From Chrysochromulina tobinii (taxonomy: Eukaryota; Haptophyta; Prymnesiales; Chrysochromulinaceae), in assembly GCA_001275005.1 (NCBI GenBank), contig JWZX01003369.1:1-41245 (forward strand): a DNA stretch of 41,245 nt. Reading direction: 5' to 3'. The position numbers were made by a program, and so were the translations under genes. The notes beneath the pieces were generated by a model. That model was given only the letters and a program-made list of their open reading frames with translations, made no database searches and had not been told where the DNA came from. Every line of letters starts with the position of its first letter. Position 1 is the stretch's first letter. Of the stretch, positions 14,458 through 37,865 are shown piece by piece.

Positions 14458-17144
14458 ATGAACATCGTGGTTACCAGCTTGACCCTCGTCGCCGCGACCG
14501 GTAGCACGCATAGAGCGCCGCATGGTGCCAAACAGCTCCACGATGATGGGTTTGCCCATCTGCGCGAGCGTTCGCTGGTGGAAGCTCGAGAGCTGCTCAG
14601 GCAAGCAGAGAGCCTCCATCCATCAGCGCCTCATACGCAGCTGCTGCGTGGCCACTGCGCAATGGCAGACCGAAACCTCGATGCTGCCTTAGATGCGTAT
14701 GAGCAGGCTGACCAGTCGACATTCAAACTTAGGACAACCGCATCAGATGAGCAGGCGTGCACCGCAAGCGCGGATGTGCACCATGCGTTTGGCCGGCTAT
14801 TCCGCAACCAGGAGCGTTGGGCGGAGGCAGATGTGCGCTATGAAGCCGCCCGAAAGCTGCTGCCCTCTTCGATGGCCTTGGAAGAGGAGGGACTCTTTGC
14901 GCGCGGCAAGCGTCTCCTCGTGGACGACGCGCCAGCGGAAGCAGCTGTTGCGTTCGAACGCGGATTGGCGCTGTCATCGGCGCCATGGCGCCCCCACTTC
15001 GCTCTGCAATGTGCGCACGCGCACGGGCTGTGCGGCGACCTGGACGCGGCGCTCGAGCATTACGAGGCCGCTCTGCGCCTGCATGCGCTCCCCAGCCGTT
15101 CTCAGCTTCCCTCGTTGCTGAGCACGCTCGCCGTCCATCATGAGAAGCTACACGACCTCGACGCGGCAAGCCGCTTCTTGCGCGCCGCGTGCAATCTGTG
15201 GTGTGCGTCCATTGGCGACGAGCCGCCGCCGTCACGGACGGCGGCAGGGAGTGAACCGCACGCTTCGGAAGTACGCGCGGCGACAGCCATGACCCACATC
15301 AAGGTGGCACGTGCGCTCGAGGGCTTGTATGCGCTCACTGGCACCTCTTCCTCGACCGCGAATCTGACGAATCTGACGACTCTGACGACTCTGACGACTC
15401 TGCGCGCCCTGGACGAGATCGTCGAGCTGCCACCCGGGTTGGAGGCAGCAGCGGCTCACTACCGCAAGGCCATCGAGCTGCACCCGCGGCTGGCGGCGGC
15501 GTACGATGGGCTCGCCACACTCCTGCTGGGCACATCTCGGCTGGCCAACTTTGGCGCGCCCTCTGCGGCGGCTCTCAACACAGACGAAGCACTCTCGCTA
15601 CTCCAGACGGCCGCGTCGCTCGCGGCGAGCGCACAGCCGGCAACAGCCACAGCGGGAGCCGCTGCCGCTGCCATCCCTTCCACAGCCACCCCTCCCACAC
15701 CTGCCATCCTTTCCACAGCCACCAAGGAGCGCGCTGCCGCAGATGAGCAGCGACGGCTGCATCTCGACGCGATCTTCTCGACAAGATCGGAGGTGGCGCA
15801 TTGGAGAGCGATCGTCGCCAACTTGACACTCAAGGGGGCTGCTGCTCAGAGGCACACGCCAGCCCGCCCTCACGCCTCTGCAAACGCCCGGCCGGCACGG
15901 GGTGCGTGGCAAGTGCCCGAAGCGTTGAAGCACGCGCGAGTTGTGGCGCGACGGCGGGTGGCGACTGCGCCCGAACTCATGGCGCTCATCAAAGCGCGAG
16001 CACCGGTGGTGCTCACGAACCTGCAGCGAGACGCTGGGTTTGCCTCGGGGGATGCGTGGAGCGCTCATCAGCTAGCTGCCCTCGCCGGCGAGCGCATTGT
16101 CAAGGTGAGTATCTCGCAGAGCGGTCGGTTCGATGGGTCGGAGGATGGCTCGCTGTGGGGACTTTCCGAGGGGCAAGATGTTCTGGTGAGGACGACACAG
16201 ATGCACCTTGCAGCTGATTACCACTGCTTACCACTGCTTACCACTGCTTACCACTGCTTACCACTGCTTACCACTCCTGATGGCCACTGATGACCACTGA
16301 TGACCACTGATGACCACGACACAATGCACATTGCAGCTGCGTGGCATGCTCGTCTCGGTGGCCGCTGAGTGCCGCTGATTGTGTTGGATGCAGGTGCGGC
16401 CACCCGAGACGCACATGCAGTTGCGTGACCTGCTCGCGTTGCTCTCGCTAGAAGAGCCTCCCGCCCATTTCTATCTCGAGTACAACGCACTGCACCAGTA
16501 CTTGGGGAAGCCGCTCCGCGAGATGGTGCCTTGCCCGCCTCAGGCATCCCTCCTCCGTCCGCTGCTGACGAACCTTTGGCTGGGCAAAGGCGCCACTACC
16601 TCGCCGCTGCATTATGATGAGTACGAGAACCTGCTCTGTCAGGTGCGATGGCGCGCGGAGCTTCTGATGGCCACTGATGGCCTCTGATGGCCACTGATGG
16701 CTTCTGATGGCTTATGATGGCCACTGATGGCCACTGATGGCCACTGATGGCCTCGCTCATCAGGTGCGAGGGCGCAAGGAGATCCTCCTCTTCCCGCCCG
16801 AGGACCTTCCTCTTCTCGAGTATCGCGCGCGGCCCAAGGGCGTGATGCGCTATGAGTACCCGGACCGCTTCACACGTGTTCCGCTGTCCGCCGAGGCGAG
16901 GGCGACCAAGGTCCTCTTTGCCGCGTCGATCAACATGACCCATCCAGACCGGCCGAGGAAGCGGGCCCTCGAGCAGTGCTCTCCGCTGCGCTGCACACTC
17001 CAGCCTGGGGAGACGCTGCTGCTCCCAGCTTATTGGCATCATGAGGTCTACTCGCACCCTGCCGAGCCCGATGGCGAGGGGTTGAATGTGGCGGTCAATT
17101 TCTGGTTCAGAAACGAATCCGCACCGCCCGCATACTATGCGTGA
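14458..17144 (+). CDS. TPR-JmjC (cupin-8) 2-oxoglutarate/Fe(II) oxygenase-like protein
   Basis: Exons 14458-16185, 16394-16642 and 16764-17144 join in phase 0 to 785 residues. A short hydrophobic start (MNIVVTSLTLVAATGS) could be a signal peptide. TPR-like helix pairs fill residues about 25-220 (for example GFAHLRERSLVEARELLRQAE and GDLDAALEHYEAALRLH) with one more near 330. The C-terminal third is a cupin-8 JmjC domain: LWLGKGATTSPLHYDEYENLL gives the Fe-binding His-x-Asp, and LLPAYWHHEVYSH gives the distal His, with NVAVNFWF closing the fold. Fe(II)/2-oxoglutarate hydroxylases of this group modify proteins or RNA; the substrate is unknown. A 9-base repeat encodes LTNLTTLTTLTTL near 15355. 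Both introns carry tandem decamers (see separate entries), and the intron 2 borders are near-duplicates. Confidence 0.8.
16186..16393 (+). other. Intron 1 of the TPR-JmjC gene, with internal direct repeat
   Basis: Donor GTGAGG at 16186, acceptor GATGCAG ending at 16393, 208 nt, phase 0. Its first part (16192-16216, from acgacacagatgcacc to gcagctg) is repeated with one gap and one mismatch at about 16316-16339. The decamer array lies exactly between the two copies. Confidence 0.75.
16215..16317 (+). repeat. Decamer minisatellite inside JmjC intron 1
   Basis: Ten decamers: one TGATTACCAC, five TGCTTACCAC, then after two extra bases one TGATGGCCAC and three TGATGACCAC. The period is strictly 10 bases. 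Reading through them without splicing gives a repeated HCLPL peptide and then a stop, so they are intronic. Confidence 0.9.
16643..16763 (+). repeat. JmjC intron 2: decamer array between duplicated splice borders
   Basis: A 121 nt intron, donor GTGCGA, acceptor ATCAG. Positions 16665-16754 are nine decamers of TGATGGCCAC, TGATGGCCTC or TGATGGCTTC. The first 18 bases of the intron (16643-16660) match the first 18 bases of the next exon (16764-16781) at 15 positions, and CAG precedes both, so the intron is bracketed by a direct repeat spanning both splice sites. Confidence 0.9.
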
Positions 17145-17507
17145 GCCCGCCGACGTCGTACTGGTACTCAACAGTGTTCGCGGTGTTGCTTGTTTTGAAC
17201 ACTGTTGAAACTCAAAACTCGGAAAACTGCTGATACGTGATAGCAAGCGGCTGGTAACACCCCGTTCTCGTGCCCGTTTCTCGTGCCCGTACCCCGGCTA
17301 CCCCCCCAAACCCTCTGCACTATCGGTGCACACTGTACCGCTCTCCTCTGGGCTCTCCTCCGAACCCGGTCCCCATTCACACTCTACCGCGTGAACAATT
17401 TCTGGGCATGGTGTGCGCTTTGAGCCGCGATCGGACGACGTCCGCCTCCGCCCGTACTGGCTGGAGAAAGTTTTGTGCGACGGCGTCGGGTTGGTGTTCC
17501 TCTCAGG
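17145..17507. other. Intergenic, or unmodelled 5' exon of the next gene
   Basis: No certain gene. One frame across 17410-17505 reads RLRPYWLEKVLCDGVGLVF, which looks more protein-like than its surroundings. A polypyrimidine-AG (gttcctctcag) sits just before the next ATG at 17508. An upstream exon of the following gene is therefore possible. The rest is the JmjC 3' region; tgttttgaacactgttg near 17190 is an imperfect inverted repeat. Confidence 0.35.
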
Positions 17508-18290
17508 ATGGTGCTGCACGAGGAGGGCTTCATAGTATGCTGCTCACTATGCGACACATATTTCGTGGTCGTCACCGGAGTGATGGCGCCATCGCAGCAC
17601 AACGGGCGCGAGGGCAAGAAGCAGCTCGATGAGCGCAACGAGAAGAAGCAGCTTGAATGGGCAGCAAGGCGCTGGACGATGCTTCGGTGCCCCACATGCG
17701 TCGAGCTTTTGATGGGCATGCAGATTCTTGAATACATTGAGCGGCACGTACGCGACAGCGACAGTCTCACACCACTCTCGCTTTGCTTTGTGGTCAGCTT
17801 TGAGGAGTCACAGCCGCCGCCGTTGTACCTGAATCATCATCCGCAGGGCGAAGCCGGCAAGCCGAAATGGCGTCTGGCCTCGGGCGTTGGGCCCGCCGGG
17901 CTCGAGCTCGACAATTCCCGGAGCGGGCGGCTGTGGAAGCCGAGCCTCAGGCCTTTTGGCATCGACAGGCCGCGTTACGAGGCGAGCGAGGAGGCGAGGT
18001 CGAGTGACGCCGCCGCCGTCCATGCGGAGGTAGTCAGGCGCGTGGAGACCGCATTTGAGGTTGCGGCGGAGTGCAGCGGGGCCGCAGCAGTAGACGCGCT
18101 CGCCGAGGAGTTGCACGCGGAACGACCTCTCTTTGCTTGCTGGAAAACTTTGGAGGAGCGGCTCGCCGCGACTGTGCAGGCGCATCGAGACGATGAGGAG
18201 GCGCGACGAGCGATGGAGTCACTCGCGGTGGCACCACCACCACAGCTGCCTCCGGATGACGATGACCCCATGATGGTGGGCTTTTGGTAG
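17508..18290 (+). CDS. Unrecognised protein with two CxxC knuckles
   Basis: A 260-residue protein if it starts at the ATG at 17508 (MVLHEEGF). CSLC near residue 13 and CPTC near residue 66 are spaced as in a treble-clef or rubredoxin-like zinc site, with a lysine/glutamate-rich helix between them. After that comes a Trp/Lys/Pro-containing middle, a helix-rich acidic segment (about 160-240, EVVRRVETAFEVAAECSG, LEERLAATVQAHRDDEEARRAM) and a short acidic tail ending PMMVGFW. I do not recognise the family. The reading frame is uninterrupted and the composition is protein-like on this strand only, which is why I keep it. The true start may be further upstream or in another exon. Confidence 0.55.
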   Translation: MVLHEEGFIVCCSLCDTYFVVVTGVMAPSQHNGREGKKQLDERNEKKQLEWAARRWTMLRCPTCVELLMGMQILEYIERHVRDSDSLTPLSLCFVVSFEESQPPPLYLNHHPQGEAGKPKWRLASGVGPAGLELDNSRSGRLWKPSLRPFGIDRPRYEASEEARSSDAAAVHAEVVRRVETAFEVAAECSGAAAVDALAEELHAERPLFACWKTLEERLAATVQAHRDDEEARRAMESLAVAPPPQLPPDDDDPMMVGFW

Positions 18291-19003
18291 CTGCTGAGAG
18301 GTATGTACTCGAGTAATGTGGCTCAGCCTGGCTCAAATTCGAAAGTGCTTGCTCGCTGCATCTTCGTCCGTTGCCTCGACTATACATGAAACATGATTGT
18401 ATACACGACAGCGACACGTACATACGGTATAGTAGGCGCTAGAAGCGCCATGACTGTCCGTGAACGCGGTAAAGCGCCCTAAAAGCGAACAAAGCCCCGC
18501 GTGGTACCCGCGCTACGCACATCCTTGCGTCCCACATGCTCGTGACAGAGCGTGATCATATAAGCTTACGGCCGCGCTCGTTCGGTTCTCGCCCTCTACA
18601 TGCTCTTGCTCTCTAAATCTATGTATGCTTGTATGGAGACTATTCTGTATTTTGGCACACACCTTTCACCTTGGACCTTGCTCCTTCCACTCCGTGAGCT
18701 AAGACCAGAATTCCAAATTATGCCCAATGTTATTTTCGAACCTCTACTACACGTCGGGCTGCACGTACTGAATCGGTACGTAAGACTAGTAGCAAAAAGA
18801 CTACAGAAACTGCGCGCGCGCGCGCGAGGCCCTCAGAGGCCCTTGCCTCTTTGAGTCGCGCTTTCCGCGTTACTTTACCGGTACTTACCGGTACGTACCG
18901 GTACAGAACGGTAAACTTTCATCGAACTGAACAGCTTCACCTCCGCTCGTGCCCTGAAACAGCGACGTCGCGCCTCGCAAGCACCTCGTCGTCGCGTCGC
19001 GAG
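18291..19003. other. Intergenic with AT-rich promoter-like patch and GGTAC repeats
   Basis: About 710 bases between two plus-strand genes. A TATA-like tcatataagc lies near 18556. A (CG)n run is at 18811-18825. At 18876-18915 the motif TACCGGTAC or a close relative recurs four times, making overlapping palindromes (TACCGGTA, GGTACGTACC) just upstream of the coiled-coil gene. An open frame continues upstream from that gene's ATG to 18851 but has no ATG of its own. Confidence 0.45.
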
Positions 19004-20167
19004 ATGCAACTCGCAACGCCGAGGCCGCCTGCAGGACCGCCGCCCCGAGCACCAACGCCACGAACGCCTGCTGGGCCTGACGCAACTCAAACGCCTCTCT
19101 GGAGTACGTCAAGCTATGTTCCGTCAACGCCTGAGGAAAGAAGTGCCAGAAAAAAGACGGCACACCAACTGGTCCTCACCACAGAGACCCGCATCAAGGA
19201 GGAGGCGCTCGCGCATGCACGCAAGCTCTCAGCCCGTCGACAGCTCGATGCAAAGTCGCTCGCGCTGGCAACGGCAGAGCAGGAAGCATTGCTCAGTCAT
19301 GAAAGGCGGCTAGCCTTGGCGCCACGCCACGCGTCGACGGTCTCGTCGAAGACACCTTGGAGAGACGACATTGGCGAAATGGCGGCGCGCTCACGAGCTG
19401 TGATACTTGAAGCCCTCCGCGCGAGCCAGCGGCGCGAAGAAGCCGTGGCCAAATCTCTCGACGCGGAGCGAATCGAGCGGATTCTCGAGCTTCGCGACCG
19501 AGAACTCCGGGCTTCCCTGCGCGATGCTATGGCAAAGCGTCGTGCATTTGCACAGCAGCAAGAGGAGTGGCTAGAACATCAGCGGCTCATGGCGGCCGCT
19601 AAATCGCAAAAAATCGAAGGTGACCAGGAGGCAAAGGAGCGTGCGCGACTTGAGATCGAGGAGGCGGCGCTCGCCTTCAAAGCGAAGAGAGAGAAGCAGG
19701 TTGCAAAGCGCAAGGCGGAGTCTGCCGCCGCGAAAGAACGAGCCGAGAAGCGCAAGCAAGAATACCTGCGACAACGAGCTGAGGAGATGGCGAAGGATCA
19801 GAGTGCACGGAACGAACGCGAGGAGGTCCGCCAGTTCGAGCGCGCTGTCGAGCACGCCCGCCGCAAGCACATGGTGTACGAGGAGGCCGTCGTCAAGCTC
19901 GAACCTTTGGCGATTGCTCGTGAGCGGCTGGAGAAAAAGGCGGACCTGATCCGTGAAGAGGACGAGAACGCGCTGCTACCGGCAGCACTGATGGCGGACC
20001 TGGATCGTGCTGCCAAGCGGCACGAGGCCATGGTATCCCGTGTGCAGGACTTGAAGCTCGAGGCAGAGCGTGCGGCGAATGACGCAATCGCGATCAAGAA
20101 GCGCTCGGTAGCTGCCGCCGCGACGGCCGCCGCCGCTTCGTCTAAGCCGACCGAACCGCCAAAGTAG
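19004..20167 (+). CDS. Coiled-coil protein, charged, unknown function
   Basis: A 387-residue single-exon protein from the first ATG (19004). The first 70 residues are Pro/Thr/Ala-rich and probably disordered (PRPPAGPPPRAPTPRTPAG). From about residue 75 to 365 the chain is an almost unbroken run of Glu/Arg/Lys/Ala with heptad-like hydrophobics (for example RIERILELRDRELRASLRDAM and KRKAESAAAKERAEKRKQEY), so a long single helix or coiled coil is expected. The tail is an Ala-rich AAAATAAAASS segment ending PTEPPK. No enzymatic motif is present. Proteins of this look are common among flagellar and basal-body components of protists; that placement is a guess. Codons show the strand bias of a real gene: antisense frames are broken. 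Confidence 0.65.
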   Translation: MQLATPRPPAGPPPRAPTPRTPAGPDATQTPLWSTSSYVPSTPEERSARKKTAHQLVLTTETRIKEEALAHARKLSARRQLDAKSLALATAEQEALLSHERRLALAPRHASTVSSKTPWRDDIGEMAARSRAVILEALRASQRREEAVAKSLDAERIERILELRDRELRASLRDAMAKRRAFAQQQEEWLEHQRLMAAAKSQKIEGDQEAKERARLEIEEAALAFKAKREKQVAKRKAESAAAKERAEKRKQEYLRQRAEEMAKDQSARNEREEVRQFERAVEHARRKHMVYEEAVVKLEPLAIARERLEKKADLIREEDENALLPAALMADLDRAAKRHEAMVSRVQDLKLEAERAANDAIAIKKRSVAAAATAAAASSKPTEPPK

Positions 20168-20519
20168 AACGACGATCGACGAAAACGTGGACCTTTGGTT
20201 GATTTGACGATGATGATGTCGAGGTGACGAGCGGCTTGAGGGGCGAGCATGGAGGGGAGTTGAGAAGAGAGGGGGGGGGCTGTTTTCGGGTGCTGCAACT
20301 CCCTGTACATGATGGCAAGGCCGCTCGAGCCTCGTCGCGTTTGCAGCTTCCCGCCACCTCCCGTGAGCTGACACGAGGACGTGCACGAGGATCATGCGCG
20401 AATGAGGCTATGCTGCAATTATACTGCAGACCGGAGAGATAGGGGCGGGGGGGAGAGTATTGTATTAACAGAGGGGCACACGAGACCATTCACACTTTCG
20501 AGGGACCGCCTTTCGCGCA
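20168..20519. other. Intergenic, tandem plus-strand genes
   Basis: Contains homopurine and G runs (gagagggggggg near 20270, ggggcgggggggag near 20443). A low-GC segment gtattgtattaacag near 20458 precedes the transporter start. No coding sequence is seen. Confidence 0.4.
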
Positions 20520-22434
20520 ATGGGGGGCGGAGTGCGAGGCGACGGCAAGAAGGTTGGCGTACTCGGCATGGTGGTCGTCGGCTTCTTCGTGGGTGCATGG
20601 TGGCATCTACGGCAACGAGTCCATGCTCATGGCCGGTCCGCCTCTGTATGTGTTCATCCTGCTGGGCGTGGTGCCCTTCGTCTACTCGCTGCCGATCGCG
20701 CTCATCGTGGCGGAGCTGAGCACCGCGTTCCCCGAGGACGGCGGCTACGTCGTGTGGGTGCAGGAGGCGTGCGGCAAGAATATTGGCTCGCATCACGCCT
20801 ACTGGGTGTGGGTGATCTACGTGGTTGATGCAGCCATCTACCCGGTGCTCGTGGCCAACTACGTCGATACGATGATGCCGATGAGCGCCACCGGGCGCAG
20901 TCTGTTCGCCGTGGCGATCGTGCTCGGCGTCACGCTCATCAACCTGAACGGCACCGACATGATGGTCAAGTTCAACACGCTCCTTGCCATCATCTCGCTC
21001 GTGCCCACGTTGATCTTCACAGCGCTCGGGCTGCCGAACACGACCTTCGAGCGGTGCGTGGTGAGCGAGGGCGACGTGGATTGGACGCTGCTGGTCTCCT
21101 GGACGCTCTGGCTCTACTGCGGCTTCTTCTCCCTGGGCACACTCGCCGGCGAGCTCGAGAATCCACGTCGCACCTTCATCATCGCGATTGCCATCCTCTT
21201 CCCCACAGTGCTGCTGCTCAACACGCTGCCTCTGGCCGTGGCGCTCGGGACCGACGACCGGCTCGAGCACTACACGGCAGGCTACTTCAACGTGCTCGCT
21301 GGCCGACTGGGCGGCCGGTGGCTCGACGGGGGCTTCCAGCTTGGCGCCAACGTACGCCACTGATGACCACTGATGACCAATGATGACCTGACGATGATGA
21401 CCACGGATGACCACGGATGACCACGGATGACCACTGATAGCCTCTGATCGGATCTCTGTGTGCGACAGGTGTGCCTCGTCGGGCTGTACAATGCCGCCGT
21501 GCTCACCGCAGAGCGCTCGCTCTTCTTTCTGGTGAACACGCAGTACGGCGCCGCGTGTCGAATCCGAGTGCTTCGTGATTGCAAATGATTGTACACGATT
21601 GCTCATATCTGAGTGAGCATGGTCGCGTCGGACTGCAGGTACGGCGATGCGCTGGACGCGTGGGCCGCGGATCGCGAGATGCACATGAGCGCAGGCGGCC
21701 GCATGCTGCGCTCCCTCGCCAGCTCGCAGACGGGCGTCGCGCCCCTCTTCATCCTTCTGAACGCTGCATGCGCGGCCGTGCTGGTCTGGATGCCGTATAC
21801 CTTGCTGGTCGAGTTCTCGATGCTGCTCTCGGTGCCTTCGATCCTCCTCTTCATGTGGTCCTTTGTGGCACTCCGCGTGCAGAGACCGTACGTCGAGCGC
21901 CCATTCCTCATACCAGGAGGACTACCCGTCGCCGTGCTGCTCACCATCGTGCCGGTCGCTGTGTCCATCGCTTACGCGGCCATCATCGCGACCGAGTCTG
22001 TGGAAAGCTCGTCGGAACGGCCGAGTGCGGAGGCGGCTGGCTCGGCGGGATTGCAAGCGGCATCGGAGGGCGGCTTGCCGCCCATATTCCAGGTAGCCTC
22101 AGCGCTCGGCGTCATCGGGCTCGGCCTCGTGGTCCATCTCATAGCGCACTATTGCAGCAGCAGCAGCAGCAGGGGGGAGGTAGTCAGCAGCAGCAGAGGG
22201 CACGGCGGCCGGCGCGGCGGCCGCAGCCTACACGACGACGATGGCTACGGCCTCACACACACGCCGCTGCCGAAGCCAAGCACTTCCAAGCCTTGGCCTC
22301 TGCCCACAGCCGTGGTGAGGGTGGTCCGCGGCCACGCGCACCACGCTGAGGAGCTCGAGGCCTTCAATGGCGCGACGCCGATGTCGCAGTCGCGCTCGCT
22401 CCTGCGCGAATATCGGCATAGAAGTACGTTATAG
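20520..22434 (+). CDS. APC-family amino-acid/polyamine transporter, one apparent frameshift
   Basis: Exons about 20520-21351, 21469-21542 and 21639-22434. The start (MGGGVRGDGKKVGVLGMVVVGFF) is in a different frame from the rest: dropping one base (T at 20598) gives FFVGAGGIYGNE, which has exactly the length of the FFEVSGGPFG segment of plant-type PUT/LAT transporters. Hallmarks follow: PFVYSLPIALIVAELSTAFP, EDGGYVVWVQEACG and VDAAIYPVLVANYVD, then about ten more hydrophobic helices, among them LINLNGTDMMVKFN and GTLAGELENPRRTF. These are typical of proton-coupled polyamine or cationic amino-acid transporters. The C-terminal tail is polar, with a Ser run from a CAG/AGC repeat near 22153 and a Gly/Arg stretch. 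Intron 1 is a decamer array; intron 2 has duplicated borders. The frameshift may be an assembly error. Confidence 0.75.
21352..21468 (+). repeat. Transporter intron 1, filled with TGATGACCAC decamers
   Basis: Donor GTACGC at 21352, acceptor GCGACAG ending at 21468, 117 nt, phase 0. Positions 21361-21454 hold nine decamers: TGATGACCAC and variants GGATGACCAC, TGATAGCCTC and TGATCGGATC, with one 4-base interruption. It is the same repeat family and the same orientation relative to transcription as in the JmjC introns 5 kb away. Confidence 0.9.
21543..21638 (+). other. Transporter intron 2 with duplicated border
   Basis: Donor GTACGG, acceptor CTGCAG, 96 nt. The intron begins GTACGGCGCCGCG and the next exon begins GTACGGCGATGCG, each preceded by GCA or GCAG. 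Splicing restores NTQYGDALDAW in the transporter frame. Confidence 0.8.
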
Positions 22435-22898
22435 GAAGACGAATAGCATTAGGTCCGCGACGGTTCGCTCACGGTCGAAGTCTTCTCGACAGCTCGACCC
22501 AGTCGAGAGAGGGACCGTACGCGACGTGACTCGACCCGGGCGACGCCGACGGGGGTGCGCGCCGCGTGCCGCGTCGGTGTCACGTCAGTGTAATTTGATT
22601 GGGTACGCGGATGAGGGATGTCCGCGACCGGTGTATAGAGTCTTAAATAGAGACAGTGTGGAATCCGAGAATACGATAAAAACTTACAACTTATGGATAC
22701 ATTTCAGGTGGGTGCGAATCAGACTGTGCTGCCGGCTGTCGGGGTGTGCGGCTGTGCGCTGAGAACGCGTGCGGGTCAGTCGCGAGTCGCGGGCACGCGC
22801 GTGATATGAGGGAGAGGGGCGGCCAGTCCCGGTGAGCGCGTTTGATGTGCCCCATGCGCCCTCGCACGCCTCCTCTCTTCTCGGGGGGCCCCGCGGCT
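22435..22898. other. Convergent intergenic region
   Basis: It separates the 3' ends of the transporter (plus) and the desaturase (minus). A low-GC segment at 22615-22705 (including gtcttaaatagagac and acgataaaaacttac) stands out and probably contains 3' processing signals for one or both. No gene is seen. Confidence 0.45.
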
Positions 22899-24209
22899 CT
22901 AATCGACCTTGGCCTCCTTGATCACCTTGTAGTCGAAGTTGCCCACGCGCCATAGGTTCATGTAGGTCACGTAGAGGCACGTCCAGTAGGAGCGCACGTC
23001 GTACTCGACGCCGTGCTTGGCGAAGAGCGCCATGACGCGCGGCTGAATCTTGGGGTGGTTGTACTGCGGCATCGCGGGGAAGAGGTGGTGCTCAATCTGG
23101 AAGTTGAGGTACGCCATCCACCAGTTGCACCACCAGCTCGACGTGCAGTTGGTCGTGTGGTTGGCCGAGTACAGCGTCCACGAGATGTGCTTCGTCTTCG
23201 GGATCACGTCCTTATGCGTGTGCGAGACGGCGAAGTTGGTGAAGATGTACGTGGCGCCGACGGCCAGGTGCGCAAAGTACAAGCCCGCCGAGCGCGACAG
23301 ACCCATGTAGCCAAAGGCCTGGTGCCAGAGCACGTAGCGCAGCGCCATCCAGACGAGCTCGAGGTAGTTTCCCACACGCTGGGCGTGATTCGGGTGCTGG
23401 ACGAACTGCCAGACGAAGGCGACCAGCGTGGTGATGACGCCGCCGAAGAAGAGGGGCGCCTGCAGCATCAGCCACTTCTTCGAGCCCTTGACGCCGATGA
23501 TCTTATGGAAAGCCACGAGGGGCAGTGTCTGCAGGTCGGGATCGGCACCGAGCTTCTGCGGCGTCGTGTGGTGCTTGTTGTGCTGGTTGCGCCAGTAGCA
23601 GCCCGACATGCCGCAGCCGAGGCCATAGATGATCATCTGCAGGTGGCGGTCGATCTTGATGTTGCCCGTGAGCGAGTAGTGGCCGCCCTCGTGCTGCAGC
23701 CAGCCGCAGCGGCCTTGCGCGATGCCCATCATGAGCATGCCCGTCCACCAACGGCCGCCCCAGATGAGGACGAGGCTCGCGGCGTACATGGCAATCACCT
23801 CGCCGATGCGGTAGGCCACGTGCGCGAGGTTGGGCTCAAAGTACCCCTCCTGGAGCAGCTGCTGCCGGAGCTCCTCAAAGTCCTTGCTGAGAGCATCTTT
23901 CTCGTAGTCAGCATCGACGGGACGCGAGGGCAGTGAGGCGAGCATCTTGGCCGCCTTCTTGGAGCGCAGGTGGAAGTTGTTGTACGCGTCGCTCGCGTCC
24001 GAGCCGAGCTGGTACGTGATCACCTTGCCACCTGGGTGGCGCTTGACGAACGCGCTCACGTCGTACACCACGCCGTTGATGATCATCTCCTTCTCGGCGT
24101 CGATCGAAGAGACGGTGAGGTCGGCCGCATCCGTGCGGCTGTCGTTCGTGAGGCCGTGGTAGATCTCGGGGAGGACGGTGGCGTGGCGTTCAGGCGCTTT
24201 GCTGGCCAT
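22899..24209 (-). CDS. Front-end fatty-acid desaturase with N-terminal cytochrome b5 domain (Delta6-type)
   Basis: A 436-residue protein from the ATG at 24209 (MASKAPERH); an in-frame ATG 20 codons earlier is less likely. The cytochrome b5 domain carries HPGG (about residue 59), the haem-binding hallmark. Three histidine boxes follow: QHEGGH (about 172), HNKHH (about 209) and QIEHH (about 374). The Gln in the third box marks front-end desaturases. The segment HYSLTGNI plus YGLGCGMSGCYWRNQHNKHHTTPQKL is worded like the Delta6 acyl-CoA desaturases of marine microalgae. Delta6 is therefore the best guess, though Delta5 or Delta8 is possible. The enzyme would sit in the ER membrane and insert a double bond between an existing one and the carboxyl end during EPA/DHA synthesis. 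Length is normal and no key residue is missing. Confidence 0.88.
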   Translation of the reverse strand: MASKAPERHATVLPEIYHGLTNDSRTDAADLTVSSIDAEKEMIINGVVYDVSAFVKRHPGGKVITYQLGSDASDAYNNFHLRSKKAAKMLASLPSRPVDADYEKDALSKDFEELRQQLLQEGYFEPNLAHVAYRIGEVIAMYAASLVLIWGGRWWTGMLMMGIAQGRCGWLQHEGGHYSLTGNIKIDRHLQMIIYGLGCGMSGCYWRNQHNKHHTTPQKLGADPDLQTLPLVAFHKIIGVKGSKKWLMLQAPLFFGGVITTLVAFVWQFVQHPNHAQRVGNYLELVWMALRYVLWHQAFGYMGLSRSAGLYFAHLAVGATYIFTNFAVSHTHKDVIPKTKHISWTLYSANHTTNCTSSWWCNWWMAYLNFQIEHHLFPAMPQYNHPKIQPRVMALFAKHGVEYDVRSYWTCLYVTYMNLWRVGNFDYKVIKEAKVD

Positions 24210-24436
24210 TCTGCAGAATAGATTCCCGATCCTGCATTCGAGGGCCGCCGTCTCTATTTTCCCACACATTTCTCGTTTCTTGTCAAGTCAGGACGGTCAC
24301 ATCAAAGAACAATTCAAAAAAGTCCAAGCCACTTCAAAGCACGCCACATCCCGCGTCCCGTTTCCTCGAAAGTTATCCCCGTGACGAGCCAGTGACGAGC
24401 CTGCTACGCGCACCCGCCATTGGACGAATCCTGAAG
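24210..24436. promoter_or_regulatory. Divergent spacer upstream of the desaturase
   Basis: Only 227 bases lie between the desaturase start (minus) and the next start (plus). The spacer is less GC-rich than its flanks (aagaacaattcaaaaaagtc near 24305). Both promoters should lie here. Confidence 0.4.
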
Positions 24437-24934
24437 ATGTCCCTCGAGGCTGAAGGATTGTGTGTTGTCGTGCCCGATGCTGATGCGGACTACGTCTTCG
24501 TACCACATGCATTTCGGTACAAGGGCACGTACCGTGACGATATTCGCGAGCAAGAAGTCTACGAGCAGGATGCAGGATCGTGGATCCCAATAGAGTCTCC
24601 GACGTCCACGACGGCCTCCATCCGCACAATGTCTTGTGCGCGGAAGCAACAACTGATGGAGACAACAACTGACGGAAGCAGTGACCGGCTGTCCGAGTGG
24701 GCAGCCGATCCAGCAGATCCGACTAGTGGCTCCGAATGTCCAGCAAAGCCCGCTGGCGGCTTCACCAGGATGGCGAGCGTGGCTGCAAAGGCACGACTCG
24801 AGCGAGCCGCAGCTCGCGAGAGAGCCCGGGCGACAACACCGGCTAGGGAGCGCTGGGCGATGAGCTCCTCTTGGAGCCCGCGAGACTTTCGCCAAGCACT
24901 GCAACAATCCGCTGCGATCGAGTCTCCACTGTAA
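24437..24934 (+). CDS. Small unrecognised protein
   Basis: A 165-residue protein from the ATG at 24437 (MSLEAEGLCVVVPDADADYVFVPHAFRY). The N-terminal 55 residues look folded: alternating hydrophobic strands with Tyr/Phe and a conserved-looking PHAFRYKGTY. The rest is Ser/Thr/Ala/Arg-rich, with a basic helix (AAKARLERAAARERARA) near residue 115 and SWSPRDFRQAL near the end. No family is recognised and no membrane or signal segment is seen. It could be longer if upstream in-frame codons belong to a 5' exon. Kept because the frame is open from a plausible start within a divergent promoter arrangement; a chance ORF cannot be excluded. Confidence 0.4.
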   Translation: MSLEAEGLCVVVPDADADYVFVPHAFRYKGTYRDDIREQEVYEQDAGSWIPIESPTSTTASIRTMSCARKQQLMETTTDGSSDRLSEWAADPADPTSGSECPAKPAGGFTRMASVAAKARLERAAARERARATTPARERWAMSSSWSPRDFRQALQQSAAIESPL

Positions 24935-25164
24935 GTAAGAAAAACATGCCAACAGGCAGCGTACACGTGGCGAGGGAGTCTCCACTGTGATTCTGTGCGG
25001 TCACTGAGATAGAGGTCGGTACCTTCAGTCAGGGAATGAAAACACAATCCGCACACCGAAAAGATTGCCAGTTCGGCTAGTTGTTGTTCACATGAGCGCA
25101 TGTGAGTGTACAAGATCGTAGCTAATACTCGCTCAATCCGAATCAAAATTAATAGGCTGCGCGT

Positions 25165-28100
25165 TCACAACTGATCCACGCCGTGTGCATACGGGCCTCG
25201 ATCTCTCCACCCCCCAAAGTGCTTTTCCGCCACCTGCTTGGCCTGGTTGCCAACCAAGTCCAGCGACTTGAGAGCGGGCAACGCCGCGTCTGCCGCCGCC
25301 GTCAGTGCAGCCACACCGGCAGAGCCCATCAGATTGTTGTAGAGCCAGAGCTTCTCGAGCTTGGCGAGCACCACACCTCGAGGCATCTCCCATGAGGTCT
25401 CTCCAGTCTCGGCACGGAAGAAGTAGAGCGCGCCTGTCTCTTCGTCCTCGTGCGCCTCCCAGCCGGGCGCGAGCGTGGCCATCAACGGCGGCGCATCTCC
25501 GCAAATCTCCCGCGGATCTCCGCAGATCTCCCGCGGATCTCCTCCGCAGATCTCTGCCATCGCACTCGATCCCGCGATCGCCGCCGCCGCAAAGCCACCA
25601 ACGCGACCCGAGGACAGCGACTGAGCGAGTGCGACGGCTCCGGCGTCTCCGATCCGATTCGAATGCAGGTAGAGCGTCTGCAGATTGGCCAACGCGCCCT
25701 TGGCAATCGCACCGGCTAATGCAGCTGCGCCCTGATCGCCGATGTGGTTGCGGTTGGCATCCAGAAAGACCAACCGGGCAAGGCTGCCGCTCGCCAGCGC
25801 ACCCGCAAGCTCCACCATCCCCGCGTCATCGACCTGATTGTTGTCGATGTAGAGCCACTCGAGATGACTCAGCGCCCCAAATCGCGTCGCATCGGCGAGG
25901 GTCGTGAGGCCTTCGCCGCTGATCGCGTTGCAGCTGAGCAGCAGTCGTTTGAGTCTCGGCACTCCCTCGAGATCTCGTAAGATCGTCGAGATCACGACGA
26001 GATCGTCGTCCACGAGCCGTTTTCGCGCCCAATCGGCGCCCACCTCAGTGCACAACTTCTCGCGTGTGCTGCCCACCTGCGTCCAGAACGCCGCCGCCTT
26101 CTCGGTCAGGAGGCGCTCATCGTGCAGTGCCAGCTTGGTGGCGGCGTTCTCCAGATGGCCACGCCATGCGTCCTCAGCTGCGGTTGCGCGGTATGCGGCC
26201 GCCCGCCGCTCTACTGCATGTCGTTGCTTGATTGCATCCAGATGCTCGGTCCAATGCCCATGATCGAGTGAGATTGCTTGAGTGCATCCAGATTGTGTCA
26301 GATGCTCGGCCCCATGCCCCGGCGGCACCGGCTGGCACGGCGACGGGTGGCCGCTATCTGTGGCGAGCTCGAGCTCGATCTCATGCTTCGAGGCCATCTG
26401 CTCGTCTTCGAGTCGCAGCCGCTCTCTCATTGCTGCGGCCGCCCTTGGCAGCCAGAGCACCTCACGCACTACATTCTCGCCCACCGCCCGCAGCAGCTCG
26501 CGCACCGGGGCGTCGACCAGCCGCTTGCCCGCCTCCTCCGCCGTTGCCTTAAGAGCGCCCTCGAGCTGGCAGGCGGCCTCCTCGAGTGCGCGCATGAGCT
26601 TCTCGCGCACCTGATGAGGACGGCACTCTGAGGCATTCAGTAGCACTCAGTGGCACTCAGTCGCACTCAGTCGCATTCAGTCGCACTCAGTGGCACTCGG
26701 AGGCACTCGGAGGCACTCAGCAGCCTCCTCGAGCGCACCTCGGCGATGCATGCAAAGTGTGTGAGCATGCAAGCCATATTGTGCAGCTCCCGGCGCGCTC
26801 GCTCAAACTGCTCCCCCACTGCCGTCGCGATCGCGTCCCTGGCGCCGTCGTGATCGTCGGCAACGGCCTTGCCACTCTTGCCCCCATCGACCTTCTCGTC
26901 GCCTCCGCCATCACCCTTGGGCCGACTATCAGGCTCGTCACTGCCCTCGCTGCCAGAGCCTTCATCGCGCGCCTCCGAGGCAGCAACGACGGCACGCAGC
27001 GTCGCCAGTCCATTCTCAATCACGTGATGGAGCGCATCATCTACGAGCTCCGACACGAAGTCACTCTCGAGACGCTTGAGCTCGAGCGCATCGGCGGCCG
27101 CATCCGCTGCCGCCTCGTACTCCCCCCCGCCCACGGCCACCTCGATGGTCTCGCGCAGAGCCATCACGAGGCCACGCATGCTCTCCTGCGACGTGAGCAG
27201 GGTGGCCTTCAGTGACAATGGCGACTATCTCAGTGGCAGTCAACGGCCAACGGCAACCTCAAGGGCGACCCGGCTCCTCAGTGGCAATTACCTTGTCGGC
27301 ATCGTCGATGGCGGTCTGGAAGAGGGAGCTCGGCTCAGCGATGGGCTCGAGCTTCCGAAGGACAGCGAGCACCTGCGCGCGCGTACGCCAAGTCGCATCC
27401 CCGCGCTCAAGGAGATGATATAGGATCACATGCGACTCGTTGAGCGCCGAGATGAGCTCACGCGCGGCCGCATCGAGTCCAGTTGGGTCGAGCAAGCGCC
27501 TCCGGTGGTCGTCGGCCGTTAAGGGGCGACCAGACTCTGGATGGACGACGGGTGCCTTGCTGATCGCGAGGAGGATCGAGGGCGCATTCGCCTTGACGTG
27601 CGCCATGGTGCCGAAGAGGCCCGAGAGGATGTGGAAGAGGTCCTTGACCCCCTTGCCTCGGTCCGCGAGCAGCGAGTGATAGTTTATGATCACGACGACG
27701 AGCACACTCGCGGCGGCTGAGATCGTCTGCTTGACGTTGACTGCGTTCGCCACGTTGATCTCGAAGCCCCGGTTATCAAGGAAGCCCGGGCAGTCGGCAA
27801 AGGCGAACCCCTCTCCCAGGCTCTCTGCCGCCGACTCCACCTGAGGCGCACGGGTCTCTGGCTAGTTGGCAGTGCACTCGATCGTCCTCCATCGCAATTC
27901 ATGGGCAATCAGTCGTCGTCACCTGAGGCGCAAAGGTCTCCGATCGGTTGGTATGGCCGATTATCATGAGCTCTGTGACCGCGGATGCCCGGCTGACGAC
28001 CATGGTGTCGTCGGCGCTGAGCTCAAAGGTGCATCCGTGCAGCAGGTTGATGAAGGCAGACTTGCCCGCGCCGGTGTTCCCAAGAACCACCACACACCGC

Positions 28101-29260
28101 TTGCCCAACGCATGTCGCGACTGCGCCTGACCATGCTCAACACAACACAGCAAGCAGTGGCGAGACTCCTCGGCGGTGAGCGTGACGCCGCCGGGGGTGC
28201 AAAGCTTCTTATGAATCACCGGATCGACTTGGCCGCTCGCGAGCGAGGCTGTTCGTGTGGTGCGTGTGGCATGTCGCGCCTCCTGCCGCTGTGAACCACG
28301 CCCGGCGTGTCGAGCCACCGCCTCCCTCAGCCGCGTACGTGCCAGCTCGATGGTCTCGAGCTCGCCGAGCGAGCTCACTTGTGCGAGCTCTTGTAGGCAG
28401 TGCCAGAGCTCCGAGCACGCCGGGTAGCTCGCCGGGAGGCCGACTGGCCCATGCTCACCACAGCGCTCCATTCCTGAGTGGATAGCCTCCGGATTTGGAT
28501 GGATAGCCTCCGGATTTGGATGGACAGACTCCGGATTTGGATGGACAGACTCCGGATTTGGATGGACAGACTCCGGATTTGGATGGACAGACTCCGGATT
28601 TGGATGGACAGACTCCGGATTTGGATGGATAGCCTCCGGCTGAACAGCCATCGGCGAGGTTGCGGACGGCTGCGCAGGTTCGGGGTCCTGCGCGTCTTCT
28701 GGCAGCCGCTGCCGTATCAGCGCCACCAGGGCAGCTTTGGGGTCCTCGCTGTCGAAACAGGTCACGAGGCATTCGCTTGGCGTGGTCTACAGCACCTCGC
28801 AAGCTCGCCTGTAGAGGGTGCCGAGGCTTCCCTCTAGGTTTTCGTGGGCTTCGCGCCGCCGCTGAACCACAGCGGAAGGACTGGCTGGGCATGCCCTCTT
28901 CCCTCCCGAAGTGAAAGGCTGAACATGGTCGTCATCGCTCGCCTTGCTCGTACTGAGGCTGCCCATCTCGCCGCTCTGGTCCTGCACTTCCTTCCGAATG
29001 GTCACGATCTGCTTGCGGGTTGCCTCGATGAAGACTTTGCGCGCAAGCACCTCTCGTGCGTCATGCTGAGTCTGCATGCGACTGCCCTCCACAATGCTCA
29101 CCGTGTCCTCCAAGTCCTGCAAATCCCACTCGACAGCGCGCAGGCCGGACAGCAGCTCCAAGCTCAGTCGCTCGAAAAGGTTACTCTTGCTATCGAGCAC
29201 CTTCCACTTAGCGTGCATCTCCTCCAGCATCCGGACCAAGTTTTGCACCTCCTCGTCCAT
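25165..29260 (-). CDS. Multi-exon P-loop GTPase-LRR-WW protein
   Basis: Exons 29260-28796, 28744-27923, 27840-27292, 27206-26739 and 26610-25165 join in phase 0 to 1249 residues. The N-terminus is helical. Seven HPNPE repeats follow, then a GTPase: GNTGAGKS (Walker A), FADCPGF (switch-2/DxPG), VVVIINYHSLL and a weak AISKAP where NKxD is expected. A coiled-coil middle leads to RNI-type leucine-rich repeats (LKRLLLSCNAISGEGL, LEWLYIDNNQVDDAGM, LQTLYLHSNRIGDAGA, LEKLWLYNNLMGSAGV). A WW domain (GWEAHEDEETGALYFF...GETSWEMP) is inserted between the fourth and fifth LRR. The P-loop/LRR layout resembles sensor or scaffold proteins, but no named family fits. The first exon boundary is unsure: a TAG at 28789-28787 is in frame, removable by a possible 51 nt intron (28795-28745). 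Confidence 0.65.
26222..26320 (-). repeat. In-frame 60-bp-period tandem duplication in the GTPase-LRR gene
   Basis: The segment encoding HGAEHLTQSGCTQAIS is an imperfect copy of the following HWTEHLDAIKQ. At DNA level CCGAGCATCTG and GATGCA-TCAAGCAA recur 60 bases apart (one copy has 8-9 extra bases compensated elsewhere). The frame stays open, so this is probably coding, though a hidden intron cannot be ruled out. Confidence 0.6.
26611..26738 (-). repeat. GTPase-LRR intron made of ten TGAGTGCCAC-type decamers
   Basis: Donor GTGCGC at 26738, acceptor CATCAG ending at 26611, 128 nt. Positions 26621-26720 are ten decamers in transcript sense: TGAGTGCCAC, TGAGTGCGAC, TGAATGCGAC and close variants. 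The intron's first 19 bases resemble exon sequence a little downstream (GCGCACTCGAGGAGGCCGC) at about 16 of 19 positions. Confidence 0.85.
27207..27291 (-). other. GTPase-LRR intron, 85 nt
   Basis: Donor GTAATT at 27291, acceptor CTGAAG ending at 27207. Splicing joins IDDADK to ATLLTSQESMRG; reading through ends in a stop after EEPGRP. The intron contains TGCCACTGAG twice, a rotation of the decamer in the neighbouring intron. Confidence 0.75.
27841..27922 (-). other. GTPase-LRR intron bracketed by a 21-bp direct repeat
   Basis: Donor GTGACG at 27922, acceptor CCTCAG ending at 27841, 82 nt. The 21 bases across the 5' splice site (27940-27920) and across the 3' splice site (27858-27838) match at 19 positions, both including GCGCCTCAGGTG. 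Splicing joins SETFAPQ to VESAAESLG just before the DCPGF motif. Confidence 0.85.
28484..28639 (-). repeat. Coding 21-bp minisatellite (HPNPE repeats)
   Basis: Seven copies of a 21-base unit (plus a partial one) encode HPNPESV or HPNPEAI in the GTPase-LRR protein. The two outer copies on each side are slightly diverged (gatagcc versus gacagac), the inner ones are identical, which points to recent expansion. Confidence 0.9.
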
Positions 29261-32400: not shown

Positions 32401-33696
32401 GGGCCGAATCACCGCGTCGGCCCCGGACCTCGCGAAAGCATCCAACGCCGCCGAGAAGATCATCAAGCTCATCGACTCGGGCGAGGCGTCGCCTATCGAC
32501 CCACTGAGCGAGGCCGGGCTCGTGTGCGGCCAGAGTGGTAGCACGGGCGGCTCCTCGGGTCTGCGCATCGAGTTTCGGCGCGTGAGCTTTGCTTACCCGT
32601 CGCGCCCCAATGTGCCGGTGCTGTCTAACTTTTCATTCGTAATCGAGGCCGGGCAGTACGTGGGTGTGGTCGGCGCGAGTGGCTCCGGTAATTGCCCTTT
32701 GATAGCCCCCTCTGATTGCCATCCATCACATAGGAGCACGCGCGCTCTCCTGATCTGATTGCCCTCTGATTGCCCTCTGACTGCCCTCCGTCAGGTAAGA
32801 GCACGCTCGCTCTCCTAATCGGGCGAGTATACGACGTCGACGAGGGCGCCGTGCTCGTCGACGGCATCGATGTGCGCGAATGGAACGTGCGTGCGCTGCG
32901 CTCGCTCATCGGCCTCGTCCAGCAGGAGCCCGCCCTCTTCGCCGACTCTATCGCTTACAATATCGGGTACGGCACGCCCAGCGCCGAGAAGCCCGTCGAA
33001 GGCCAAGGCGTCCTGCCCCTCGAAACTGGTGGCTCAGAGGGCATGGCTACGGACGCAGCCGAGGCCGGGGCTTCGCTCCACAACAATACAAGCGCGGTAG
33101 GCGAGGGCAAGGTCTCCCCTCAGACCTCCGATCAGACTAAATCGACTAGCCCAGCGGAGGGGAAGCCGCGCTCGAAGGCTAAGAAAGCCGTTGTGGCGCA
33201 GGCCGTCGAGATGACTTTCGCACCTCCTCCCGACGAGATTGTGAACGCGGCCAAAATGGCCAATGCTGCGACGTTCATCGATACCTTTCCGGCCACATAC
33301 GCAACCTTTTGCGGCACGCGCGGCTCGCAGCTCTCGGGAGGGCAGAAGCAGCGCGTGGCCATTGCGCGCGCACTCTACCGGGCGCCTGCCATCTTGCTTC
33401 TGGACGAGGCAACCGCCGCTCTCGACACGAAGAGCGAGGCAGTCGTGCAAGAGGCCCTCGACCGTATCATTGAGGAGGGACGACGCACCAAGCCGGGCGA
33501 GACTGCCAAGCCGACTCGCACGACCGTGTGCATCGCGCACCGTCTAAGCACCCTCAAGAGTGCCGATCGCATCGTCGTCCTCGAGAAGGGTATTCTCGCT
33601 GAAGATGGGACGCACGATCAATTAATGAGCATGCCCTCTGGCAAGTATCGGGCGCTCGCGATGGCGCAGGGTGCGGCGATGAGCGCCACGGCCTGA
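29456..33696 (+). CDS. Full-length ABCB (P-glycoprotein-type) ABC transporter
   Basis: About 1378 residues in TMD1-NBD1-TMD2-NBD2 order. NBD1 has GTSGSGKST (Walker A), QQEPILF (Q-loop), LSGGQRQR (signature), [12 protein letters not shown] (Walker B) and IAHRLSTL (H-loop). NBD2 has [36 protein letters not shown] and IAHRLSTL, so both ATP sites look competent. About 70 extra polar residues sit in NBD2 after the Q-loop. An intron (32688-32794) splits the NBD2 Walker A between SGSG and KST. Two frame breaks are visible. Near 30225 the frame changes between RRAGVDQ and [16 protein letters not shown] and a few linker residues seem missing. Near 30987 one extra base interrupts [14 protein letters not shown]. 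Everything else is intact, so assembly indels are as likely as decay. The family exports lipids or toxic hydrophobic compounds; the substrate is unknown. Confidence 0.85.
32688..32794 (+). repeat. ABC transporter intron containing a copy of its own 3' exon start
   Basis: Donor GTAATT, acceptor CGTCAG, 107 nt, phase 1. Bases 32732-32755 inside the intron match exon bases 32797-32820 at 21 of 24 positions. Sense 11-mers TGATTGCCCTC, TGATTGCCCTC and TGACTGCCCTC lie between 32756 and 32788, and a more diverged set precedes the first copy. The intron looks like two tandem copies of one unit. Confidence 0.9.
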
Positions 33697-37554: not shown

Positions 37555-37865
37555 CTATCGGATACGTATCCTGATGTAATGTGATGTGTCTTGCATGTAT
37601 CCTGATCGTATCTTGACGTGTCCCGTACATGTACGTCAAGATACATCGAGATACATCAGGATACATGTTGTATCTGTGACTTTGGCATCATTGAACCCAG
37701 CATCATTGGAAATGTATCTTAACCAGGGATATGTATCCTTCTTTAAGATACATTTAGGATACATTTAGAATACAACGTATCTTAACCATCAGATACATGC
37801 TGGCACACAAGATACACTCATGATACATGTCGAATACATAGGGATACATTCGAGGATACGTATCT
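37555..37865. repeat. GATACA/TGTATC repeat field with long inverted repeat
   Basis: The word gatacat or its complement atgtatc recurs more than a dozen times in both orientations. Around 37593-37666 catgtatcctgat...tatcttgacgt is mirrored by acgtcaagatac...atcaggatacatg, giving arms of 25-35 bases with one inserted stretch. It borders the damaged lysine-tail gene. Confidence 0.75.

Follow-up and report, generated by a model that had tools for sequence, protein, structure and literature searches.

The window (here, the whole analysed stretch of 41,245 bp, contig JWZX01003369.1 of Chrysochromulina tobinii) harbours genes for a cupin/JmjC-like protein, an amino-acid permease, an ABC transporter and a desaturase, together with a gene that keeps the name GTPase-LRR given to it by the first-pass annotation. 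Best matches to named relatives, all of them haptophytes, were found in Rebecca (56%) and Pavlovales (54%) for the desaturase, and in Prymnesium parvum (69%) for a gene of region L031, treated below. Five tandem arrays of one decamer family were delimited by TRF in the window, all of them intronic, all in sense orientation and distributed over both genomic strands:

16186..16393, plus strand: intron 1 of the cupin/JmjC-like gene; array at 16214-16317 (TRF)
16643..16763, plus strand: intron 2 of the cupin/JmjC-like gene; array at 16664-16752 (TRF); tail CTCATCAG at 16756-16763
21352..21468, plus strand: intron of the amino-acid permease gene; array at 21357-21438 (TRF)
26611..26738, minus strand: intron of the GTPase-LRR gene; array at 26622-26720 (TRF, minus-strand motif); tail CTCATCAG at 26611-26618, minus strand
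32688..32794, plus strand: intron of the ABC transporter gene (Walker A region); 11-bp array at 32754-32788 (TRF)

The boundaries of intron 1 were taken from the homologues P0245 and P0246 (with the Cupin_8 domain spanning the junction), which bore out the start at 16186 read by the first-pass annotation, where our own gene finder had proposed 16105. When the models of these cupin, permease and ABC transporter genes are spliced, Pfam domains cross the junctions. The intronic, sense-oriented arrays described earlier on both strands of the window are real and far above chance (as judged by TRF, shuffles and a reversed-pattern control), with 14 matches to the pattern TGATGACCAC repeated twice (<=3 mismatches) vs 0 in 100 dinucleotide shuffles. 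They do belong to one family, although its word is better given as (C/T)TGAT(T/G/A)(G/A)C(C) than in the form first proposed, and the supposedly near-constant 10-base period does not extend to the ABC array (period 11) or to other introns (periods 10-13). It had also been stated that no such array occurs elsewhere in the window: this holds for TRF arrays of the word, which are absent from coding and intergenic DNA, but arrays with units of 10-11 bp that are either unrelated or doubtful are present at 18875-18904, 37632-37666 and 37742-37774, and single words (TGAT[TGA][GA]CC) stand outside the array introns at 30045 (plus strand) and at six minus-strand places, the one at 27911 lying in sense within a predicted intron. 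Words like GATACAT/ATGTATC abound, in either orientation, in the intergenic stretch 37600-37800, where some of them form 10-11-bp arrays unrelated to the decamer family. At 28479-28639, 35808-35945, 36342-36442 and 40604-40702, long tandem repeats were recorded whose period is a multiple of three; the majority lie in predicted coding DNA.

Over the whole genome (53.15 Mb, 2253 contigs) the doubled pattern TGATGACCAC (<=3 mismatches) recovered 7334 matches, vs 27 for the pattern reversed. Place and strand were tabulated in the window plus 24 10-kb regions that were selected by contig number and not for arrays (281,245 bp in total), using TRF arrays with periods 10, 11, 13 and 14, a score >=50 and >=2.5 copies. 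Gene models came from our own ab initio finder, in which non-coding DNA was modelled strand-symmetrically; homology exposed errors in them (the first settings and the intron-averse settings mis-joined genes, and the later models still contain errors). From 32 CTGA-type arrays, 29 were placed in introns in sense, two were intergenic and one was antisense, this last in a predicted intron that the region end truncates. In this much the first-pass annotation is supported, genome-wide (one word family, nearly always sense and nearly always intronic, for which slippage alone is insufficient). It had been conceded that unrelated units in most other introns would speak against the idea, and part of this was found, as 68 of 127 modelled introns lack the word and 11 intronic arrays are built of other words, some still carrying TTGAT. 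Arrays of other words (n=18 in the same sample) were distributed over introns (11), intergenic DNA (6) and coding DNA (1). Under a deliberately intron-averse model, single words TGAT[TG][AG]CC were counted 78 times in introns in sense and twice in antisense, 22 and 11 times in coding sense and antisense, respectively, and 40 times in intergenic DNA. Tandem periods that are multiples of three dominate in coding DNA, and those of 10-11 dominate the intronic arrays. The 24 regions hold 93 modelled introns, of which the 26 with >=3 words are confined to 10 regions; array introns are unevenly spread, with eight in one gene of L022, eight in one gene of L031 and none in 14 of the 24 regions. Extrapolation from these 26 in 240 kb would give ~5,800 array introns genome-wide.

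The 127 modelled introns (26 sources, window and L017 included) were divided into 35 with >=3 words, 24 with one or two and 68 that were word-free. The downstream exon begins with GT in 22/35 array introns, 6/24 one-or-two-word introns and 7/68 word-free introns, and the acceptor reads CATCAG in 12/35 array introns vs 2/68 word-free ones. Exact direct repeats of >=8 bp across the junction were registered in 8/35 array introns vs 0/68 word-free introns; the remaining 27/35 array introns have no such repeat, which counts against the generality of the layout described below. The summed match between the flanks of the same intron reached 205 in array introns vs 128 for permuted pairs (sd 7, max 162, 2000 permutations) and 58 vs 41 (sd 3, max 54) in one-or-two-word introns, and word-free introns showed no excess over permuted pairs (91 vs 89, sd 3). 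A gapped test was weaker, because arrays match each other too: 6/35 array, 3/24 one-or-two-word and 5/68 word-free introns passed the 99% control, and one, three and one, respectively, exceeded the control maximum.

The array is probably only the body of a larger, inserted unit, and the reading as a special minisatellite was incomplete. The telling feature is a direct repeat of exon sequence flanking a unit with a terminal 3' splice site, and it is common to a second family devoid of arrays. In this layout (T-E-T), which many of the array introns display, E consists of the array and a tail, CTCCCTCATCAG, supplying the 3' splice site, and T is a GT-starting copy of the first bases of the downstream exon, supplying the 5' splice site. 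T was detected in four of the five window array introns (p values nominal). In intron 1 of the cupin/JmjC-like gene a decayed copy at ~16186-16216 corresponds to the exon head at 16394-16423 (alignment p 0.03), and in intron 2 the first copy occupies ~16643-16665 and the exon copy 16764-16786 (alignment p 0.003). The head of the GTPase-LRR intron matches sequence 21-38 nt inside the downstream exon (local match p 0.007) and may represent a T copy with an internal loss. The ABC array (32754-32788) sits within a 65-bp duplication (32691-32820), in which the copy (32731-32755) of the exon head at 32796-32820 (p 0.0005) is placed inside the intron and not at its head. The permease intron is the exception, as an alignment search found no T (p 0.84).

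Beyond the window, seven regions chosen for recurrence of CCCTCATCAG followed directly by GTGCG, ~70 bp apart, contained ladders or single T-E-T units; tail conservation at loci with CATCAG followed by GTGCG is there by choice, as they were selected by the tail. In a set of 20 isolated E tails, hand-picked among the first 100 listed so as to escape that bias, T was found (score >=11) in 12, and 10 of these scored above all 380 cross-paired controls (control max 11). A wider set of 80 sites (74 tails in L034-L060 and six known introns) had T (score >=12) at 30, 26 of them distinct, with lengths of 18-42 bp except for 12 (truncated by a locus end) and for 56 and 77, which include the array. An identical 40-bp E, with T of 33 bp in one case and 26 bp in the other, is carried by two introns of a single gene. 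This first family (E1) is dispersed, its core 32-mer having 164 copies (<=3 mismatches; control 0) with differing flanking T. Genome-wide, 782 of 1157 E tails (68%) are followed by GT and 375 are not. The ends of T agree beyond chance with the phase of the E units, as T-E microhomology would have it (mean match 0.92 vs 0.19, permutation p 0.0008) in a set of only 13 cases, two of them dominating. As to terminal inverted repeats of the cut-and-paste type, some E1 copies start with CTGAT and end with ATCAG. As regards a stop-codon (mRNA-decay) idea, the unit TGCTTACCAC contains no TGA. In a separate instance (G000:C127:6586-6684) the E tail recurs five times at an exact 21-bp spacing, and similar units are present in L038.

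The second family (E2, GCATGCAAGTGCTCACCACGGCGC) had 1991 matches (24-mer, <=2 mismatches; control 0), e.g. L009 near 1997, L065 and L075, and displays the same T-E-T layout with no decamer array: generality belongs to the layout and not to the array. The 5' end of E2 is fixed (GCATGC), its 3' end is pyrimidine-rich and closes with CACAG, and its T measures 14-47 bp where it begins at GT. The flanking direct repeat exceeded its own control maximum in 14 of 20 loci (in L022 barely); none was found in five of the 20, and in L071 the sole match was to a simple repeat lying off the junction. Five of six sampled copies are in sense relative to the gene models, and in the remaining one (L026, antisense) the flanking repeat suggests that the gene model is wrong. 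Both E1 and E2 show the dispersion by which introners are recognized, i.e. similar sequence at many unrelated intron positions, and in both the flanking T differ from copy to copy.

Support for the junctions was provided by proteins. The record P0143 (568 aa, of cDNA or DNA origin, source jgi, longest contig 2175 bp) is 87-100% identical to the L031 exons (78% in one gapped stretch) and lacks exactly ten L031 introns, eight of them with 5-17 words; three further introns, in one badly resolved alignment stretch, were left out of the count. At an FtsZ junction the alignment with solved FtsZ is gapless. Splicing of these introns in the cell, and their origin by gain and not loss, are inferred. 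The records P0241 (97% identical; window side translated by eye) and P0242 (relatives 94-97%) read into intron 1 with a different unit order; the array is thus variable among close relatives, and arrays seem to evolve fast.

We consider it likely that the arrays are the bodies of an introner family, E1, that converts exon sequence to new introns. E1 would be composed of a run of (C/T)TGATKRCC decamers and CTCCCTCATCAG, offering words that resemble a branch point, a brief run of pyrimidines and an AG at its end. Its insertion would leave an exon stretch T (11-42 bp) on each side, the first copy (GT start) becoming the 5' splice site and the end of E1 the 3' splice site; the intron would consist of T1 plus E1, and splicing between the two T starts would restore the old message. 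Subsequently, the number of decamers may rise and fall and entire T-E units may duplicate into ladders, slippage and tandem duplication being still active on these units, as the ladders attest. The orientation lock would arise because splicing is open to sense E1 only; a second, probable cause is that insertion is aimed at GT-starting exon sequence in the transcription sense.

The foremost alternative, which we judge improbable, is that only local tandem duplication took place (Rogers/Hellsten; amphioxus mirages), by which boundaries duplicate in place, AG/GT copies act as splice sites and the shared word is a branch-point word multiplied by slippage. Ladders of the form (T-E)n-T agree with it, as do the boundary-spanning repeats that the accessible portions of two papers describe in amphioxus and potato (PMC3087553, PMC4974935) and the enrichment of branch-like CTNAY words in word-free introns close to their 3' ends (28 vs 11.3, sd 3.2). 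However, the same E 32-mer occurs in many contigs with different T, and a second, unrelated E has an identical layout. Nor are introns of the same gene clearly more alike (6-mer cosine 0.209 vs 0.183, p 0.08), and within-gene copying is not claimed. The introns are also not purely duplicated exon, as a Rogers-type origin would have it, since E stands between the T copies.

Far less probable is a functional array, i.e. selection for several branch-point or splicing-enhancer words per intron, spread by convergent slippage. Every E1 unit does hold a branch-like word, and the last (C/T)TGA lies 13-31 nt upstream of the 3' site in 23/35 array introns (commonest distance 17), but more than half of the modelled introns (68/127) manage without the word, conservation reaches past the branch word and T is left unaccounted for. 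Ordinary intronic slippage with no common origin, to which we accord hardly any likelihood, fits the variable unit number and the periods (10-11 in introns, multiples of three in coding DNA) but accounts neither for the sense word and tail held in common nor for a T derived from the exon and the GT that follows E.

Other candidates were discarded. C/D snoRNAs carry look-alike motifs (UGAUGA/CUGA), and an Rfam search of the window returned no match at gathering score. Viral carriage found no backing, with E1 patterns in 0 viral contigs and E2 in one, near the contig end; this contig (L077:4495-4518, from IMG/VR and phage-like by eye) ends with an E2 copy and a TGACGAACCC decamer array, and is probably a chimeric assembly. 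The E-tail 19-mer occurs at three places in three unrelated prokaryote genomes, which was taken as chance.

Returning to the introner reading, antisense cases are rare among the intronic ones (1/30 arrays, 2/80 words), as are intergenic arrays (2/32), and GT follows 68% of the E tails. Considering that the ~30% of the sample modelled as intron or intergenic should tolerate any orientation or register, this suggests, though from few cases and approximate gene models, that the insertions themselves are steered to sense exon sequence beginning with GT. More tentatively, and with the balance rather against it, strand direction may be imposed by mechanism and not by selection only, through a sense RNA route: a sense RNA with CTCATCAG-OH at its end, either a small RNA or an intron after excision, would be copied into exon DNA by target-primed synthesis at GTGCG-type nicks, a second cut 11-47 bp off would yield the long variable duplication, and the slippery portion of the template would correspond to the decamer array. 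If true, introns would breed introns. The short, fixed-length target duplication of cut-and-paste DNA transposons was not found in either family (T of 11-42 bp in E1, 14-47 bp in E2), and RNA-primed copying or templated repair is favoured over cut-and-paste because T length varies (11-47 bp overall). As for the hallmarks of target-primed (LINE/SINE-like) insertion, namely a duplication of variable length and a fixed 3' end, variable T was seen, the E1 tails were chosen by pattern and E2 has a fixed 5' end. The genome has 26 RVT_1 matches (22 over the cut-off) with no link to E; reverse transcriptases permit RNA-primed copying and do not show it.

Full-text literature searches, judged by titles and abstract openings, returned no report of decamer-array introners. 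Tandem repeats in introns may be mentioned in the genome paper of Emiliania huxleyi. In their accessible portions, papers on Chrysochromulina tobin and Phaeocystis globosa and one on tandem repeats in Daphnia show nothing on such introns.

Bulk intron gain is an open question, to which this genome would add two unrelated families with another architecture, namely a 3'-splice cassette combined with a long, variable exon duplication. Some copies appear young enough for T to be read exactly, making the birth of introns unusually visible, and the insertion route could be tested through strain comparison. The comparisons that follow concern the available sections of the cited papers. Introners are known, also from a Chrysochromulina MAG, where the introner has a 4-bp duplication and an element-borne 5' site; known families have target duplications of 3-9 bp, most surveyed ones combine short duplications with DNA-transposon signs, and low-complexity families were filtered from the survey (Gozashti et al. 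2022, PMC9860276). In a 2025 paper, introns of diverse kinds are described as having direct repeats of 4-30 bp nearby (PMC11782384). The amphioxus mirages (PMC3087553) resemble our case in their minisatellite-like boundary copies (units of 10-160 bp) and as proposed intron creators, but they are local to single genes, whereas one E is found here across many contigs. Tandem duplication of AGGT segments (PMC4974935) likewise has AG/GT on both sides and a message restored by splicing; here, however, the copies are separated by an E of non-exonic sequence, from which the 3' site comes. In Amoebophrya (PMC7789003), introner elements likewise form recurring introns whose boundaries are overlapped by direct repeats; unlike those described here, they have non-canonical sites, direct repeats of 3-5 nt and inverted repeats of 8-20 nt. 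With the surveyed introners (PMC9860276) both families share the dispersion at many intron positions and splice sites that are part element and part duplicated target, and they differ in their variable 11-47-bp repeats, element-borne 3' site and (in E1) minisatellite body. As dispersion was found, the layout fits splice-site restoration and a short fixed duplication was absent, we class them, on the evidence of sequence, as a variant on known introners: intron gain of the introner type, in which the bodies are minisatellites and the direct repeats are long and variable. This would reveal a class that the survey (PMC9860276), in its accessible portion, had filtered out.
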